Virus record (IMG/VR): IMGVR_UViG_3300027573_000049
Coordinates: 1-47,672 of that record
Direction: 5' to 3' (one strand)
Source: a virus
Length of the DNA: 47,672 nt
Part shown: positions 27,122-43,239 of the stretch, one piece after another
Layout: each line of letters opens with the position of its first letter
Position numbering within the stretch: position 1 is the stretch's first letter
The notes under the pieces: generated by a model
Databases searched by the model: none
What the model was told of the DNA's origin: nothing
Seen by the model: only the letters and a program-made list of their open reading frames with translations
Made by a program: the position numbers and the translations under genes

Positions 27122-27160
27122 AAAAAGTGGGGCTGGCAACGCAAAACCTGTGCCAGCCCC
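27122..27160 (-). terminator. Intrinsic terminator after the SSB-like gene
   Basis: On the minus strand a 10-bp perfect stem, GGGGCTGGCA with TGCCAGCCCC (27151-27160 and 27129-27138), surrounds a 12-base loop and is followed by ACTTTTT. It lies 8 bases after the SSB stop codon. It separates the recombination block from the tiny-gene cassette and the polymerase genes, which implies either readthrough or a separate promoter downstream. Confidence 0.93.
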
Positions 27161-39328: not shown

Positions 39329-39455
39329 GAGTTGTGGGATTGTAGTCCGAGTTGTAGGAACGGACTGCAGTCCGGTTGTAGGACTCGAGTCCGGGTTGCA
39401 TACCGACCAGTTGGTATGGGTATATAGTCTCGCCCGAGTTGTGTGACTGCATTCC
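39329..39455. repeat. Array of ~20-bp GTTGT...AGTCC repeats with palindromes
   Basis: Imperfect units of the form GAGTTGTRGGACT-AGTCC start at 39329, 39349, 39374 and 39436, with a more diverged unit at 39393. Two units contain perfect palindromes, GGACTGCAGTCC (39362-39373) and GGACTCGAGTCC (39381-39392). Spacing is about 20-25 bases. Such iterated short repeats are typical of replication-initiator or repressor binding regions. Confidence 0.8.
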
Positions 39456-39643
39456 TATTCAACTCAGAGGCGAAAATACAACTTGGAGTGGGGGTGCCCC
39501 GACGAGTACAACTGGCACAGTTTTTGCAACCACCTAACTCAACGATGTGAGTTTTTTCAACAACCATACCTTTCTCTCCAAAATCCTTAGCCTGTGAAGA
39601 TAACTCAGAGGAGGAGAGGTACACTAAAAACCGTTGAGGGGGC

Positions 39644-39672
39644 TTGACAAACTTCGGCGACTGGCGTAGACT
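39644..39672 (+). promoter_or_regulatory. Near-consensus rightward sigma70 promoter
   Basis: TTGACA (39644-39649), 17-base spacer, TAGACT (39667-39672). Predicted transcription start is near 39679, leaving only about 11 leader bases before the ATG at 39690. It would drive the kinase-like, Acb2-like and phosphatase genes and probably the terminase genes. Confidence 0.9.
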
Positions 39673-39689: not shown

Positions 39690-40145
39690 ATGAATGCTTT
39701 GACGCGGCCGAAGTTCCCGAAGCCCACTTGCAGGGTGAAGCTCGTGTGCGGGCCACCGGCTGGTGGAAAGAGCACCTATGTCAGAGCCAACGCTCATCCC
39801 AACGACATAGTGATTGACTTCGATCTGCTCGCGCGAGAAAAAGGCTTCCGGCGCTCTTGGCCGAGCGAAGCGGTCCCGACTCTTCTCTTCGAGAGAAACC
39901 ATCGCCTTTCCCAACTCTCGAAGGAACCACCTGACCGGACGGCCTGGGTCATCATCTGCGCGCCTTCGGCTGAGCTGCGGGCATGGTGGGCGGAGGCCCT
40001 CGCTGTTCGGCCAGGGGATACAGTGCTCTGTAGTGCATCAAGGCGAGAACTGATCGAGCGAGTTCGCAACGACCCCGACCGCCTCTCAGTCCGCTCGCAC
40101 CATATCGAGCTGATCGATCAGTGGTTGGAAAAGGAAGCGGCCTGA
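39690..40145 (+). CDS. P-loop kinase-like protein
   Basis: A 151-residue P-loop protein. Walker A is LVCGPPAGGKSTYV (residues 17-30); DIVIDFDLLAREKGF (residues 40-54) and a later arginine-rich RRELIERVRNDPDR lid region fit the AAA_33/polynucleotide-kinase-like group. These enzymes phosphorylate nucleic-acid ends or small substrates. It is the first gene after the strong rightward promoter, with a nearly leaderless mRNA, so it is probably made very early. Exact substrate unknown. Confidence 0.75.
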   Translation: MNALTRPKFPKPTCRVKLVCGPPAGGKSTYVRANAHPNDIVIDFDLLAREKGFRRSWPSEAVPTLLFERNHRLSQLSKEPPDRTAWVIICAPSAELRAWWAEALAVRPGDTVLCSASRRELIERVRNDPDRLSVRSHHIELIDQWLEKEAA

Positions 40146-40159
40146 CGGCCATTAGGTAA
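40145..40159 (+). repeat. 15-bp intergenic repeat, copy 1
   Basis: ACGGCCATTAGGTAA begins with the last base of the kinase-like stop codon and precedes the Acb2-like gene. An identical copy lies at 40449-40463 in the next gap. Confidence 0.85.
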
Positions 40160-40181: not shown

Positions 40182-40448
40182 ATGACTGAAGGTGGAAGCT
40201 TAGGTGCAGCGAGGGTTCGCGAAAGCTTTAATCCCTCGAAGGACAACATGGTTGACAAGATTAAGCGGTACACAGCCGACTTGATCGACCTGTGCGAGGA
40301 ATTGAAGCGTGATCCCTCAGTACAGCAAGTAGGCAGTGGCACTGCGATGCTACTCGGTGGTGAGCAACAGCGGCTAGTTGCACTGGCACAGACCGCTTAC
40401 GAGGAGGCCGCCATGTGGGCGGTTAAGGCCGCGACGACGAAGAAGTGA
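40182..40448 (+). CDS. Acb2/Tad1-type cyclic-nucleotide sponge (anti-CBASS) candidate
   Basis: An 88-residue protein with the Acb2/Tad1 hairpin-domain pattern: RESFNPSKDNMVDKIKRYTA, a short loop, then RLVALAQTAYEEAAMWAVKA ending in ATTKK. The FNPS...VD.IK...A.LID and (L/Y)EEAAMWAVKAAT blocks are the most recognisable marks of this family. Acb2 assembles as a hexamer that sequesters cyclic di- and trinucleotides and so blocks CBASS (and in part Thoeris) immunity. GGGAG lies six bases before the ATG. Early expression from the strong rightward promoter fits an anti-defence role. Binding activity is inferred, not shown. Confidence 0.8.
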   Translation: MTEGGSLGAARVRESFNPSKDNMVDKIKRYTADLIDLCEELKRDPSVQQVGSGTAMLLGGEQQRLVALAQTAYEEAAMWAVKAATTKK

Positions 40449-40463
40449 ACGGCCATTAGGTAA
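40449..40463 (+). repeat. 15-bp intergenic repeat, copy 2
   Basis: Second exact copy of ACGGCCATTAGGTAA, directly after the TGA of the Acb2-like gene and before the phosphatase gene. Confidence 0.85.
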
Positions 40464-40475
40464 AGCGGAGTGAAG

Positions 40476-40994
40476 ATGAAGGAGGTCTCAGAGCGCCTCT
40501 TCGTTGGGAACGGCCTGGATTTCGGGGTCGTTCGCGACGACGCTGAGTGGAGCATCGTGACCTGTGCGAAGGAGCCGTGGCATCGCGAAGCCCTCGGCTA
40601 CACTGGGCGGGGCGCTCCGAGAGATAGCCCAGAATATCTCTACGCCCTTCGAGGCCGACGACTGATCTTGAACATGATCGACGCTGACCGAGCCGCGTTC
40701 TTCCACCCTGACATGATGAATCGGGCACTTGAGTTCATCGAGGCCGAACTGGCGGCCGGTCAGAGTGTCTTGATCCATTGCAATCAGGGCTTCAGTCGAG
40801 CGCCCGGTCTCGCTCTTCTGTACTTGTTTAAGAAGGGACTCTACCCCGATCGCACCTACGATCAAGGCGAGACTGAGTTCCGGCACACCCTCTACGAGGG
40901 CTTCGAGCCCGGCGCTGGGATCAGAGAGTACGTTCGGACTGAGTGGCGGCGACCGCAAGTGTCATCTCCAGTTCAGCACAGTGGAGTGGAGTGA
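40476..40994 (+). CDS. Dual-specificity/tyrosine protein phosphatase
   Basis: A 172-residue protein. The active-site loop is LIHCNQGFSRAPGLALLYL, containing HCx5R with Cys and Arg intact; IVTCAKEPWH and LNMIDAD fit the upstream strand and the general-acid Asp region of dual-specificity phosphatases. Such phage enzymes may reset host signalling or dephosphorylate nucleotides. ATG 40476 has GGAG five bases upstream and is preferred to GTG 40470. It follows the Acb2-like gene in the same early unit. Confidence 0.88.
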   Translation: MKEVSERLFVGNGLDFGVVRDDAEWSIVTCAKEPWHREALGYTGRGAPRDSPEYLYALRGRRLILNMIDADRAAFFHPDMMNRALEFIEAELAAGQSVLIHCNQGFSRAPGLALLYLFKKGLYPDRTYDQGETEFRHTLYEGFEPGAGIREYVRTEWRRPQVSSPVQHSGVE

Positions 40995-40995
40995 G

Positions 40996-41541
40996 ATGCC
41001 CCGCATCTTAGGCAGGCCGAGCAATGAACCGGAGGTTGATTTTGTGCGGGAGCTGCATGAAAGCGATCTCGTCTTGCTCGCGGCCCCGCGCGGTTCCACT
41101 TCACGACCGATCGCCAAGCTTCGTGATAGCCACCATGCGCTGGCTCGAGCCCTCTCCGCTGGAATGCGGCCGGGCGAGGCAAGCCTCATCACCGGCTACA
41201 GCCTTAGCCGAATCTCCGTCCTCCAGTCCGACCCCAGCTTCAAAGAGCTTCTCGAGTTCTACCGCTCGTCACAGGACGCGACCTATGCCTCACTTCACGA
41301 CCGGATGGCAACGCTTTCTCTTGACGCTCTTGAGGAGCTTCGGGAGCGTCTCGACGATCATCCCGAGGAGTTCACGCCGGGGGCACTCCTTGAAATGGTC
41401 AAGACTCTGGCGGATCGCACGGGCTTCGCACCGACAACGAAGTCCGTCAATGTGAATGTCGATCTCAACTCGTTTGGTGATAAGCTCGAGGCCGCACGAA
41501 AGCGTGCTCAAGCGGTTAAGATCAAAACAATCGAAGGCTGA
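40996..41541 (+). CDS. Terminase small subunit (probable)
   Basis: A 181-residue protein from ATG 40996 (MPRILGRPSNEPEVDFVREL). Residues 45-90 (KLRDSHHALARALSAGMRPG, then EASLITGYSLSRISVLQSDP) form an N-terminal helix-turn-helix typical of small terminases, which recognise the packaging site; the middle is an oligomerisation-type helix pair, and a basic tail (AARKRAQAVKIKTI) ends the chain. It precedes the large terminase. A GTG at 40981 is possible but inside the phosphatase gene. The 3' end forms a hairpin. Confidence 0.78.
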   Translation: MPRILGRPSNEPEVDFVRELHESDLVLLAAPRGSTSRPIAKLRDSHHALARALSAGMRPGEASLITGYSLSRISVLQSDPSFKELLEFYRSSQDATYASLHDRMATLSLDALEELRERLDDHPEEFTPGALLEMVKTLADRTGFAPTTKSVNVNVDLNSFGDKLEAARKRAQAVKIKTIEG

Positions 41542-41553
41542 GCCCAGCCTTCG
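41532..41553 (+). other. Perfect 9-bp hairpin spanning the small terminase stop codon
   Basis: CGAAGGCTG (41532-41540) pairs with CAGCCTTCG (41545-41553) around a 4-base loop, with the TGA stop at 41539-41541 inside. No T-run follows. It is the first structure in the intergenic region that leads to the attenuator-like hairpins before the large terminase gene. Confidence 0.8.
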
Positions 41554-41560
41554 TAGAGGG

Positions 41561-41683
41561 ATGTCTCAGATGCAAGCTGCTTCCCCAGCGTACCCTGATG
41601 AGGCACCCCTCGCCTTTTCCTCCGACGCCTGCCCGAGAACTGCGAGGGGCAATCGTGTCCCTCGCTTTTTTGAAAGCCTCTGA
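41561..41683 (+). CDS. Possible 40-residue leader ORF before large terminase
   Basis: ATG 41561 (or ATG 41570) opens a frame (MSQMQAASPAYPDEAPLAFS ... ending in FFESL) that crosses the mutually exclusive hairpins and ends exactly where the terminase ATG begins (TGATG). A ribosome on this frame would open or favour alternative RNA structures. The ribosome site for 41561 is too close (GAGGG directly adjacent), so translation is uncertain. Confidence 0.3.
   Translation: MSQMQAASPAYPDEAPLAFSSDACPRTARGNRVPRFFESL
41605..41671 (+). terminator. Attenuator-like alternative hairpins before large terminase
   Basis: GCGAGGG (41642-41648) pairs with CCCTCGC (41659-41665) followed by six T (41666-41671): a standard intrinsic terminator 11 bases before the terminase ATG. 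The same GCGAGGGG (41642-41649) can instead pair with CCCCTCGC at 41606-41613, which would destroy the terminator. The region is thus arranged as terminator plus antiterminator. Confidence 0.85.
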
Positions 41684-43239
41684 TGCAAGTCGCAGCTAAA
41701 ACCCACCACGAGCAGCTGATTGATCTCCTCGCGGTTAACTCGAACGATCCGGTTGCTTGGGTCGCGGCAGCGTTTCCGTGGGGAGCGCCTGAGACTGAAC
41801 TCGAGAAATTCAAGGGACCAGAGGAATGGCAAACCAAGGTTCTGGAGAAGATACGGGACGGATTGCTCTCGCCGGACAAGGCCGTTCAATTAGCTGTTGC
41901 CTCTGGGCATGGAGTGGGCAAGAGTGCTCTTGTGGCCTGGATCATTCTATGGGCGCTGAGTACTTACACGGACACGAGAGGGGTTGTGACGGCGAACACA
42001 GAGACTCAGCTCAAGACCAAGACTTGGGCCGAGCTGACGAAGTGGCACCGACTTTTCATTGGTAAAGAGTTTTTCAAGATGACAGCGACGGCGATCTATA
42101 GCGCCTCGCCGGAGCGGGAGCGAAGCTGGAGAATAGACTTGGTTGCGTGGTCGGAGCGGAGCACTGAAGCATTCGCCGGACTGCACAACAAAGGTAAAAG
42201 AATCCTCGTGATCTTCGACGAGGCCTCGGCTATACCTGATGTGATTTGGGAAACGACTGAAGGTGCGTTGACCGACTCAGAGACGCAGATCATGTGGCTC
42301 GTCTGCGGAAACCCGACTCGGAACAGCGGACGCTTTCGCGAGTGCTTCGGTCGTTTTCGCTATCGCTGGGAGACGTTCGAGGTCGATTCGAGAACAGTCT
42401 CAATCACGAACAAAGAGCAGTTCAAGCGTTGGGTTCGGGACTATGGTGAGGACTCAGACTTCGTTCGAGTGCGCGTGCGAGGAGTGTTTCCTCGAAGCGG
42501 CTCCATGCAATTCATCTCACTTGACATTGTTGAGGCGGCGATGGAGCGCGAGCTTCCATCAAGACTGTCGCCGTTCGAGCCCTTCATTATCGGCGTCGAT
42601 GTCGCACGCTTCGGTGATGATGCCTCTTGCCTCGTATTCCGCAAGGGTCGAGACGCGAGAACAACCGAGCCGATCATGCTTCGGAATGTGGACACGATGA
42701 CTCTAGCTTCGAGGGTGGCCGATGCGTTTAGTCAGTACCACGCCGATGCGATCTTCGTCGATGGCGGAGGAGTTGGTGGCGGCGTCGTGGACCGCTTACG
42801 CCAGTTGCATGTGCCTGTCTTTGACGTACAGTTTGGAGGCAAGTCAGATCGGACTGACATGGATGAGACAATGCGCTCGGCTAACAAGCGCAGCGAGATT
42901 TGGCACTCGATGCGGAAGTGGCTTGAGGTTGGTTGCCTCCCAGCCGAAGGGGTGATTAGACAACAGTACCGCGACGAATTGCCTGCGCCCGAGTACGGCT
43001 TCAACGTCCGAGACGAGATTCAGCTCGAGCGCAAAGAGGATATGAAGAGGCGGGGAGTTGCCTCGCCGGACTTGGCTGATGCTCTGGCCTTGACCTTCGC
43101 TTACCCTGTAATGCCCAACATCTACGCGGGCGGGGAGTGGGCACAGTTTCGCTCGAAGCAGCCCTCAGCGGAGGGAGTTGAATACGATCCATTCACTAAC
43201 AAGGCGGTGTTGAGCCTCGATGAAGGGAGAGCGTCATGA
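41683..43239 (+). CDS. Terminase large subunit
   Basis: A 518-residue packaging motor. ATPase: Walker A ASGHGVGKSAL (about residues 72-82), Walker B ILVIFDEASAIPD (about 173-185) with the catalytic Glu after Asp, and VCGNPTRNSGRF as the coupling (C) motif. Nuclease: FIIGVDVARFGDDASCLVF (about 300-318), IFVDGGGVGGGVVDRL (about 357-372) and DLADALALTFAYP (C-terminal Asp) give the RNase H-type acidic triad. It cuts and pumps concatemeric DNA into proheads. The ATG follows an intrinsic terminator by 11 bases, so its expression seems conditional. Confidence 0.94.
   Translation: MQVAAKTHHEQLIDLLAVNSNDPVAWVAAAFPWGAPETELEKFKGPEEWQTKVLEKIRDGLLSPDKAVQLAVASGHGVGKSALVAWIILWALSTYTDTRGVVTANTETQLKTKTWAELTKWHRLFIGKEFFKMTATAIYSASPERERSWRIDLVAWSERSTEAFAGLHNKGKRILVIFDEASAIPDVIWETTEGALTDSETQIMWLVCGNPTRNSGRFRECFGRFRYRWETFEVDSRTVSITNKEQFKRWVRDYGEDSDFVRVRVRGVFPRSGSMQFISLDIVEAAMERELPSRLSPFEPFIIGVDVARFGDDASCLVFRKGRDARTTEPIMLRNVDTMTLASRVADAFSQYHADAIFVDGGGVGGGVVDRLRQLHVPVFDVQFGGKSDRTDMDETMRSANKRSEIWHSMRKWLEVGCLPAEGVIRQQYRDELPAPEYGFNVRDEIQLERKEDMKRRGVASPDLADALALTFAYPVMPNIYAGGEWAQFRSKQPSAEGVEYDPFTNKAVLSLDEGRAS

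Follow-up and report, generated by a model that had tools for sequence, protein, structure and literature searches.

Phage T7 carries the T-phi terminator after gene 10, inside its late operon, and in phage lambda Q lets late transcription past tR'. In the T7-like phage LUZ100 the capsid gene is directly followed by a strong terminator, and terminators are read through sequentially (PMC10134795); trp-type attenuators such as Sinorhizobium trpL combine a leader frame, a protector, an antiterminator and terminator arms (PMC7298713). We analyzed a 47,672-base virus record over its full length (the window), which by gene content comes from a podovirus-like phage, the markers being a head-to-tail connector (PF12236), a capsid protein (PF20911), a family A DNA polymerase and terL. 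As in the T7-type late operons of T7 and LUZ100, a single intrinsic terminator was found in a podovirus-like structural operon, and readthrough must feed the genes downstream of it. The terminator of the window, however, lies between terS and terL and not after the capsid gene; it is accompanied by an extra hairpin over the terS stop, and no phage RNA polymerase was recognised. We judge the probable explanation of this locus to be an intrinsic terminator that lets some transcription through within the late operon, accompanied by the hairpin over the terS stop; the features of the locus are listed in Table 1.

Table 1. Features of the terS-terL interval and of the operon leading into it.
Feature	Position	Strand	Description
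Sigma54-like -24/-12 element	39513-39527	+	TGGCAC-N5-TTGC (GG-N10-GC); upstream of late operon
Sigma70-like promoter	39644-39672	+	TTGACA-N17-TAGACT; precedes first + strand gene
AAA_33-like kinase gene	39690-40145	+	First + strand gene; present in most relatives
Acb2-like gene	40182-40448	+	88 aa; Acb2/Tad1 hairpin domain PF24729, E 8e-13
Phosphatase-like gene	40470-40994	+	Weak PF00782 dual-specificity phosphatase match, below cut-off; kept in most relatives
terS, small terminase subunit	40996-41541	+	ATG 40996 with Shine-Dalgarno; stop TGA 41539-41541; directly before terL
Hairpin H1	41532-41553	+	9 bp, 4-nt loop; includes terS TGA
Middle helix (segments 1 and 2)	41556-41612	+	-24.0 kcal/mol
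40-codon frame	41561-41683	+	TGA 41681-41683; runs through terminator; TGA overlaps terL ATG as TGATG
Proposed antiterminator 5' arm	41606-41613	+	CCCCTCGC; 8-bp complementary to GCGAGGGG 41642-41649
Intrinsic terminator	41642-41671	+	10-bp stem, 4-nt loop, six T
terL, large terminase subunit	41683-43239	+	PHROG 2, Pfam Terminase_6C

Genes on the + strand run from 39690 past the window end and round to ~19.4 kb, and those on the - strand occupy ~39.2 to 19.4 kb. The map of one relative (G006) opens between two genes that are adjacent in the window, and the break points of relatives differ from that of the window, which is consistent with a circular phage map. The close relatives were nine loci with terL at 84-88% identity and a matching terS; terS was syntenic in all nine and 82-89% identical. 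PHROG and Pfam searches with terS gave no match, so its name rests on position; in the program's ORF list the ORF containing it opens further upstream, at GTG 40981. The predicted product of the Acb2-like gene is likely an anti-CBASS sponge. The gene itself appears to be mobile; it lies between the terminator and terL in L003-L006 and near the operon start in G001. In the window a perfect 15-bp direct repeat, ACGGCCATTAGGTAA, stands on either side of it (40145-40159 and 40449-40463), and a related linker, GGCYRTTAGGNNAAGNGGAG, precedes terL in L005 and L006; these repeats are a possible recombination linker. At the place corresponding to the sigma70-like promoter, six relatives had TTGACA and a similar -10 sequence. 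Six relatives had a similar sigma54-like element at the matching place (the G001 version being TTGGCATGATTCTTGC); two such elements were found in the window against 0.11 expected by chance, the second at 27141-27155 on the - strand, and no enhancer-binding activator was recognised among the proteins searched. Upstream of the promoters, positions 39329-39455 hold four copies of a 20-nt GAGTTGTGGGATTGTAGTCC-like repeat with palindromic GGACTGCAGTCC and GGACTCGAGTCC. Relatives have similar palindromes, and the repeats are possibly an operator or enhancer array.

The initial annotation had proposed that GCGAGGG at 41642 pairs with a downstream CCCTCGC followed by six T, and this terminator was confirmed. 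Its layout is GCGAGGGGCA-atcg-TGTCCCTCGC-TTTTTT, with the stem ending at 41665 and the T-run (41666-41671) directly after it. The stem, in which 7 of the 10 pairs are G-C, has the G+C-rich character, the length of at least 5 bp, the short loop and the adjoining T-run of an intrinsic terminator. Its computed energy was -17.7 to -18.9 kcal/mol with a z of about -5.7 relative to shuffles, and it was the most stable hairpin-plus-T-run site on the + strand of the 47.7-kb window. The perfect hairpin described over the terS stop was likewise present (z about -5.0, about -15.3 kcal/mol). Another stop-spanning hairpin, CCGGGGAGGTCAGTGTGAGAGACTTCCTCGG followed by TCTTTG, was noted on the - strand at 34820-34850, over the stop of the gene at 34833-35255. 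Folding of the whole terS-terL region, which had been suggested as a check, gave a z of -3.6 with none of 200 shuffles equally stable, and the default fold consisted of the stop-spanning hairpin, the middle helix (segments 1:2) and the terminator (segments 3:4). Neither the exact terminator pattern searched against viral contigs nor a DNA similarity search with 41400-41800 among phages gave a match, and no Rfam family came near its gathering cut-off (the best, BjrC68, scored 15.2 bits against 39). The T-run is separated from the terL ATG by only 11 nt, where a promoter with its leader would not fit, so a terL mRNA with the native start needs a polymerase that has passed the terminator. Scans of parts of the late region showed no convincing promoter downstream of the terminator, counts being at the shuffle level. 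This need to transcribe terL through the terminator can be read from the sequence by itself and is the strongest part of the idea put forward in the initial annotation.

That idea was an attenuator-like switch, in which the 5' arm at 41642 could pair instead with an upstream segment at 41606. In a ribosome-gated attenuator, a ribosome at the start of the small frame would cover segment 1, segments 2 and 3 would pair and formation of the terminator would be blocked; or ribosomes translating through would keep the terminator open and re-initiate at terL via TGATG. The parts of a trp-type attenuator can be drawn here in a four-segment layout, and the middle helix would sequester AGAGGG, which sits in segment 1 ahead of the small frame. 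The 8-bp complementarity stood, the 2:3 pairing having an energy of -14.5 kcal/mol, but its proposed role as an antiterminator was not supported. An attenuator calls for a mutually exclusive antiterminator that exceeds chance and is conserved. When the C- and T-rich upstream interval was dinucleotide-shuffled 5000 times, 5.4% of the shuffles gave a perfect match of 8 bp or longer (P 0.054). The longest upstream complement to the terminator 5' arm was 5 bp in L003-L008 and 6 bp in L002, which is the chance level (P about 0.67-0.69). Relatives that lack the pairing capacity had been named as evidence against the switch; they were found for the antiterminator but not for the terminator, which L003-L008 and L002 retain. 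The middle helix was weak as well, with a z of -1.5 in the window (P about 0.07) and of about -1 to -1.5 across lineages, significant in none. In the partition function of the complete RNA the terminator had a probability of about 1, segment 1 masked or not. The 2:3 pairing reached a probability of 1.0 and dominated only when segment 1 was masked and the transcript also ended before segment 4.

The frame said to cross these structures and end at the terL start was found as described, from ATG 41561, and an alternative start at ATG 41570 gives 37 codons with the Shine-Dalgarno-like AGAGGG at a 9-nt spacing. By Shine-Dalgarno energies terL has none of its own, whereas most other late genes have one, and a small frame with a Shine-Dalgarno sequence coupled to terL arose in 3% of shuffles, in a test chosen after the fact. 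Against this, the codon usage of the frame was poor though ambiguous (it ranked at the 2nd percentile among slices of real genes and within the top 5% of open slices taken off frame), and no homologue was detectable in relatives. Unlike trp-type attenuators (PMC7298713), the element of the window lies inside an operon, its frame runs through the terminator and the 37-residue product has no regulatory codon run. Coupled re-initiation at terL, in which the translating ribosomes would at the same time hold the terminator open, is plausible from a single genome. It is quite doubtful that translation of the 37-codon frame through the strong terminator decides the transcription of the packaging and virion genes, about 25 kb in all; if it did, the reading of this frame would couple virion production to ribosome supply. 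We regard the ribosome-gated attenuator as unlikely, a kinetic switch at the terS-terL interval is conceivable but nothing favours it, and the alternative pairing of 41606 with 41642 is probably incidental.

Comparison with the close relatives supported the terminator before terL as real. Their terS-terL intervals shared almost no sequence with that of the window, and nevertheless in three sublineages (the window, L003-L008 and L002) a hairpin spanned the terS stop and a terminator followed terS, in differing letters. In L003-L008, which form one lineage, the stop-spanning hairpin had 12 bp and a GAAA loop, and the terminator had a T-run. In L002 the stop-spanning hairpin measured 9-11 bp, and the terminator stem, of 10 bp, ended in a short tail, CCTTTT. 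Between the terminator arms of the window (GAGGGGCA/TGTCCCTC) and those of L003-L008 (GAGGGCGT/ACGCCCTC), three inner pairs would have changed with pairing kept, if the two are homologous; a MAFFT alignment of the three terminators put the arms out of register, so these compensatory changes were read by eye and rest on two sequences. L009 and L010 had neither the hairpin nor the terminator, though their terS and terL are the closest to those of the window, and the element is therefore dispensable in the group. Among relatives below 70% identity, a terminator-like site occurred within 600 nt upstream of terL in 4 of 109, against 6 of 109 simulated controls. The survey was run with strict and relaxed settings, and none exceeded the control outside the clade. 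In 66 of the 105 of these relatives with a measurable terS-terL gap it was 0 or less, the genes abutting or overlapping. Since distant relatives were at the control level and their terminase genes mostly abut or overlap, the interval with its hairpins is a feature of the window's clade.

The same gap counts are what would be expected if terS and terL once overlapped and the terminator arrived with cargo, having no regulatory role of its own, and the terS-terL interval is indeed a place of variable content. The cargo today would be the Acb2-like gene in L003-L006 and nothing in L007 and L008. The window, L007 and L008, however, have retained the terminator but have no cargo, and the hairpins have survived the divergence of the sequence, so we consider a leftover of insertion rather improbable. 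The location between the terminase genes and the palindromic DNA could also point to a packaging site (pac or cos) acting at the DNA level and not as an RNA element. A shared recognition site predicts otherwise than a conserved TerS beside an interval that is not conserved, and the hairpin has a T-run behind it on one strand; we rejected this explanation as scarcely credible.

The distance from the conserved double promoter region to the terminator is about 2 kb, the entire virion operon comes after the terminator, and one of the promoter-proximal genes is a likely anti-defence gene. Such an arrangement might serve as a temporal gate, in which early transcription would end at the terminator once the first four genes had been copied, and late transcription would read through with the help of an antitermination factor, of phage or host origin, acquired at the promoter. 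The position downstream of a promoter and upstream of the virion genes resembles that of tR' in lambda, but in the window about 2 kb and four genes intervene between promoter and terminator, and neither a Q-like gene nor another antiterminator protein was recognised among the proteins searched, which covered a subset of the genes. The absence of the terminator from L009 and L010 and the place of the Acb2-like gene after it in L003-L006 argue further against a gate, which we hold to be improbable.

A plain internal terminator with readthrough accounts for what is conserved. RNA polymerase would start at the divergent promoter region, at about 39.5-39.65 kb, and would transcribe the kinase-like, Acb2-like and phosphatase-like genes and then terS. 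A fraction would stop at about 41671 and the remainder would read on into terL and the virion genes, so that expression would step down after terS and the short transcript would gain a protected 3' end. We infer that the site works as a terminator in the host, that part of the polymerase reads through and that the terminator serves to set gene dosage. The sigma70-like promoter that precedes the operon, in the window as in six relatives, counts in favour of the internal terminator, and the missing terminators of L009 and L010 and the short T-run of L002 count against it. With about 25 kb of virion genes downstream, a strong terminator of the simple kind would have to be read through to a substantial degree, unless a promoter further on has gone unseen.

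By itself the terminator does not point to a new mechanism. If it works, transcription of terL, and apparently that of the entire virion operon, would depend on readthrough of one hairpin. This hairpin has been kept in structure, not in sequence, by some close relatives and is lacking in others, which would offer a natural comparison for how the TerS:TerL ratio is set.
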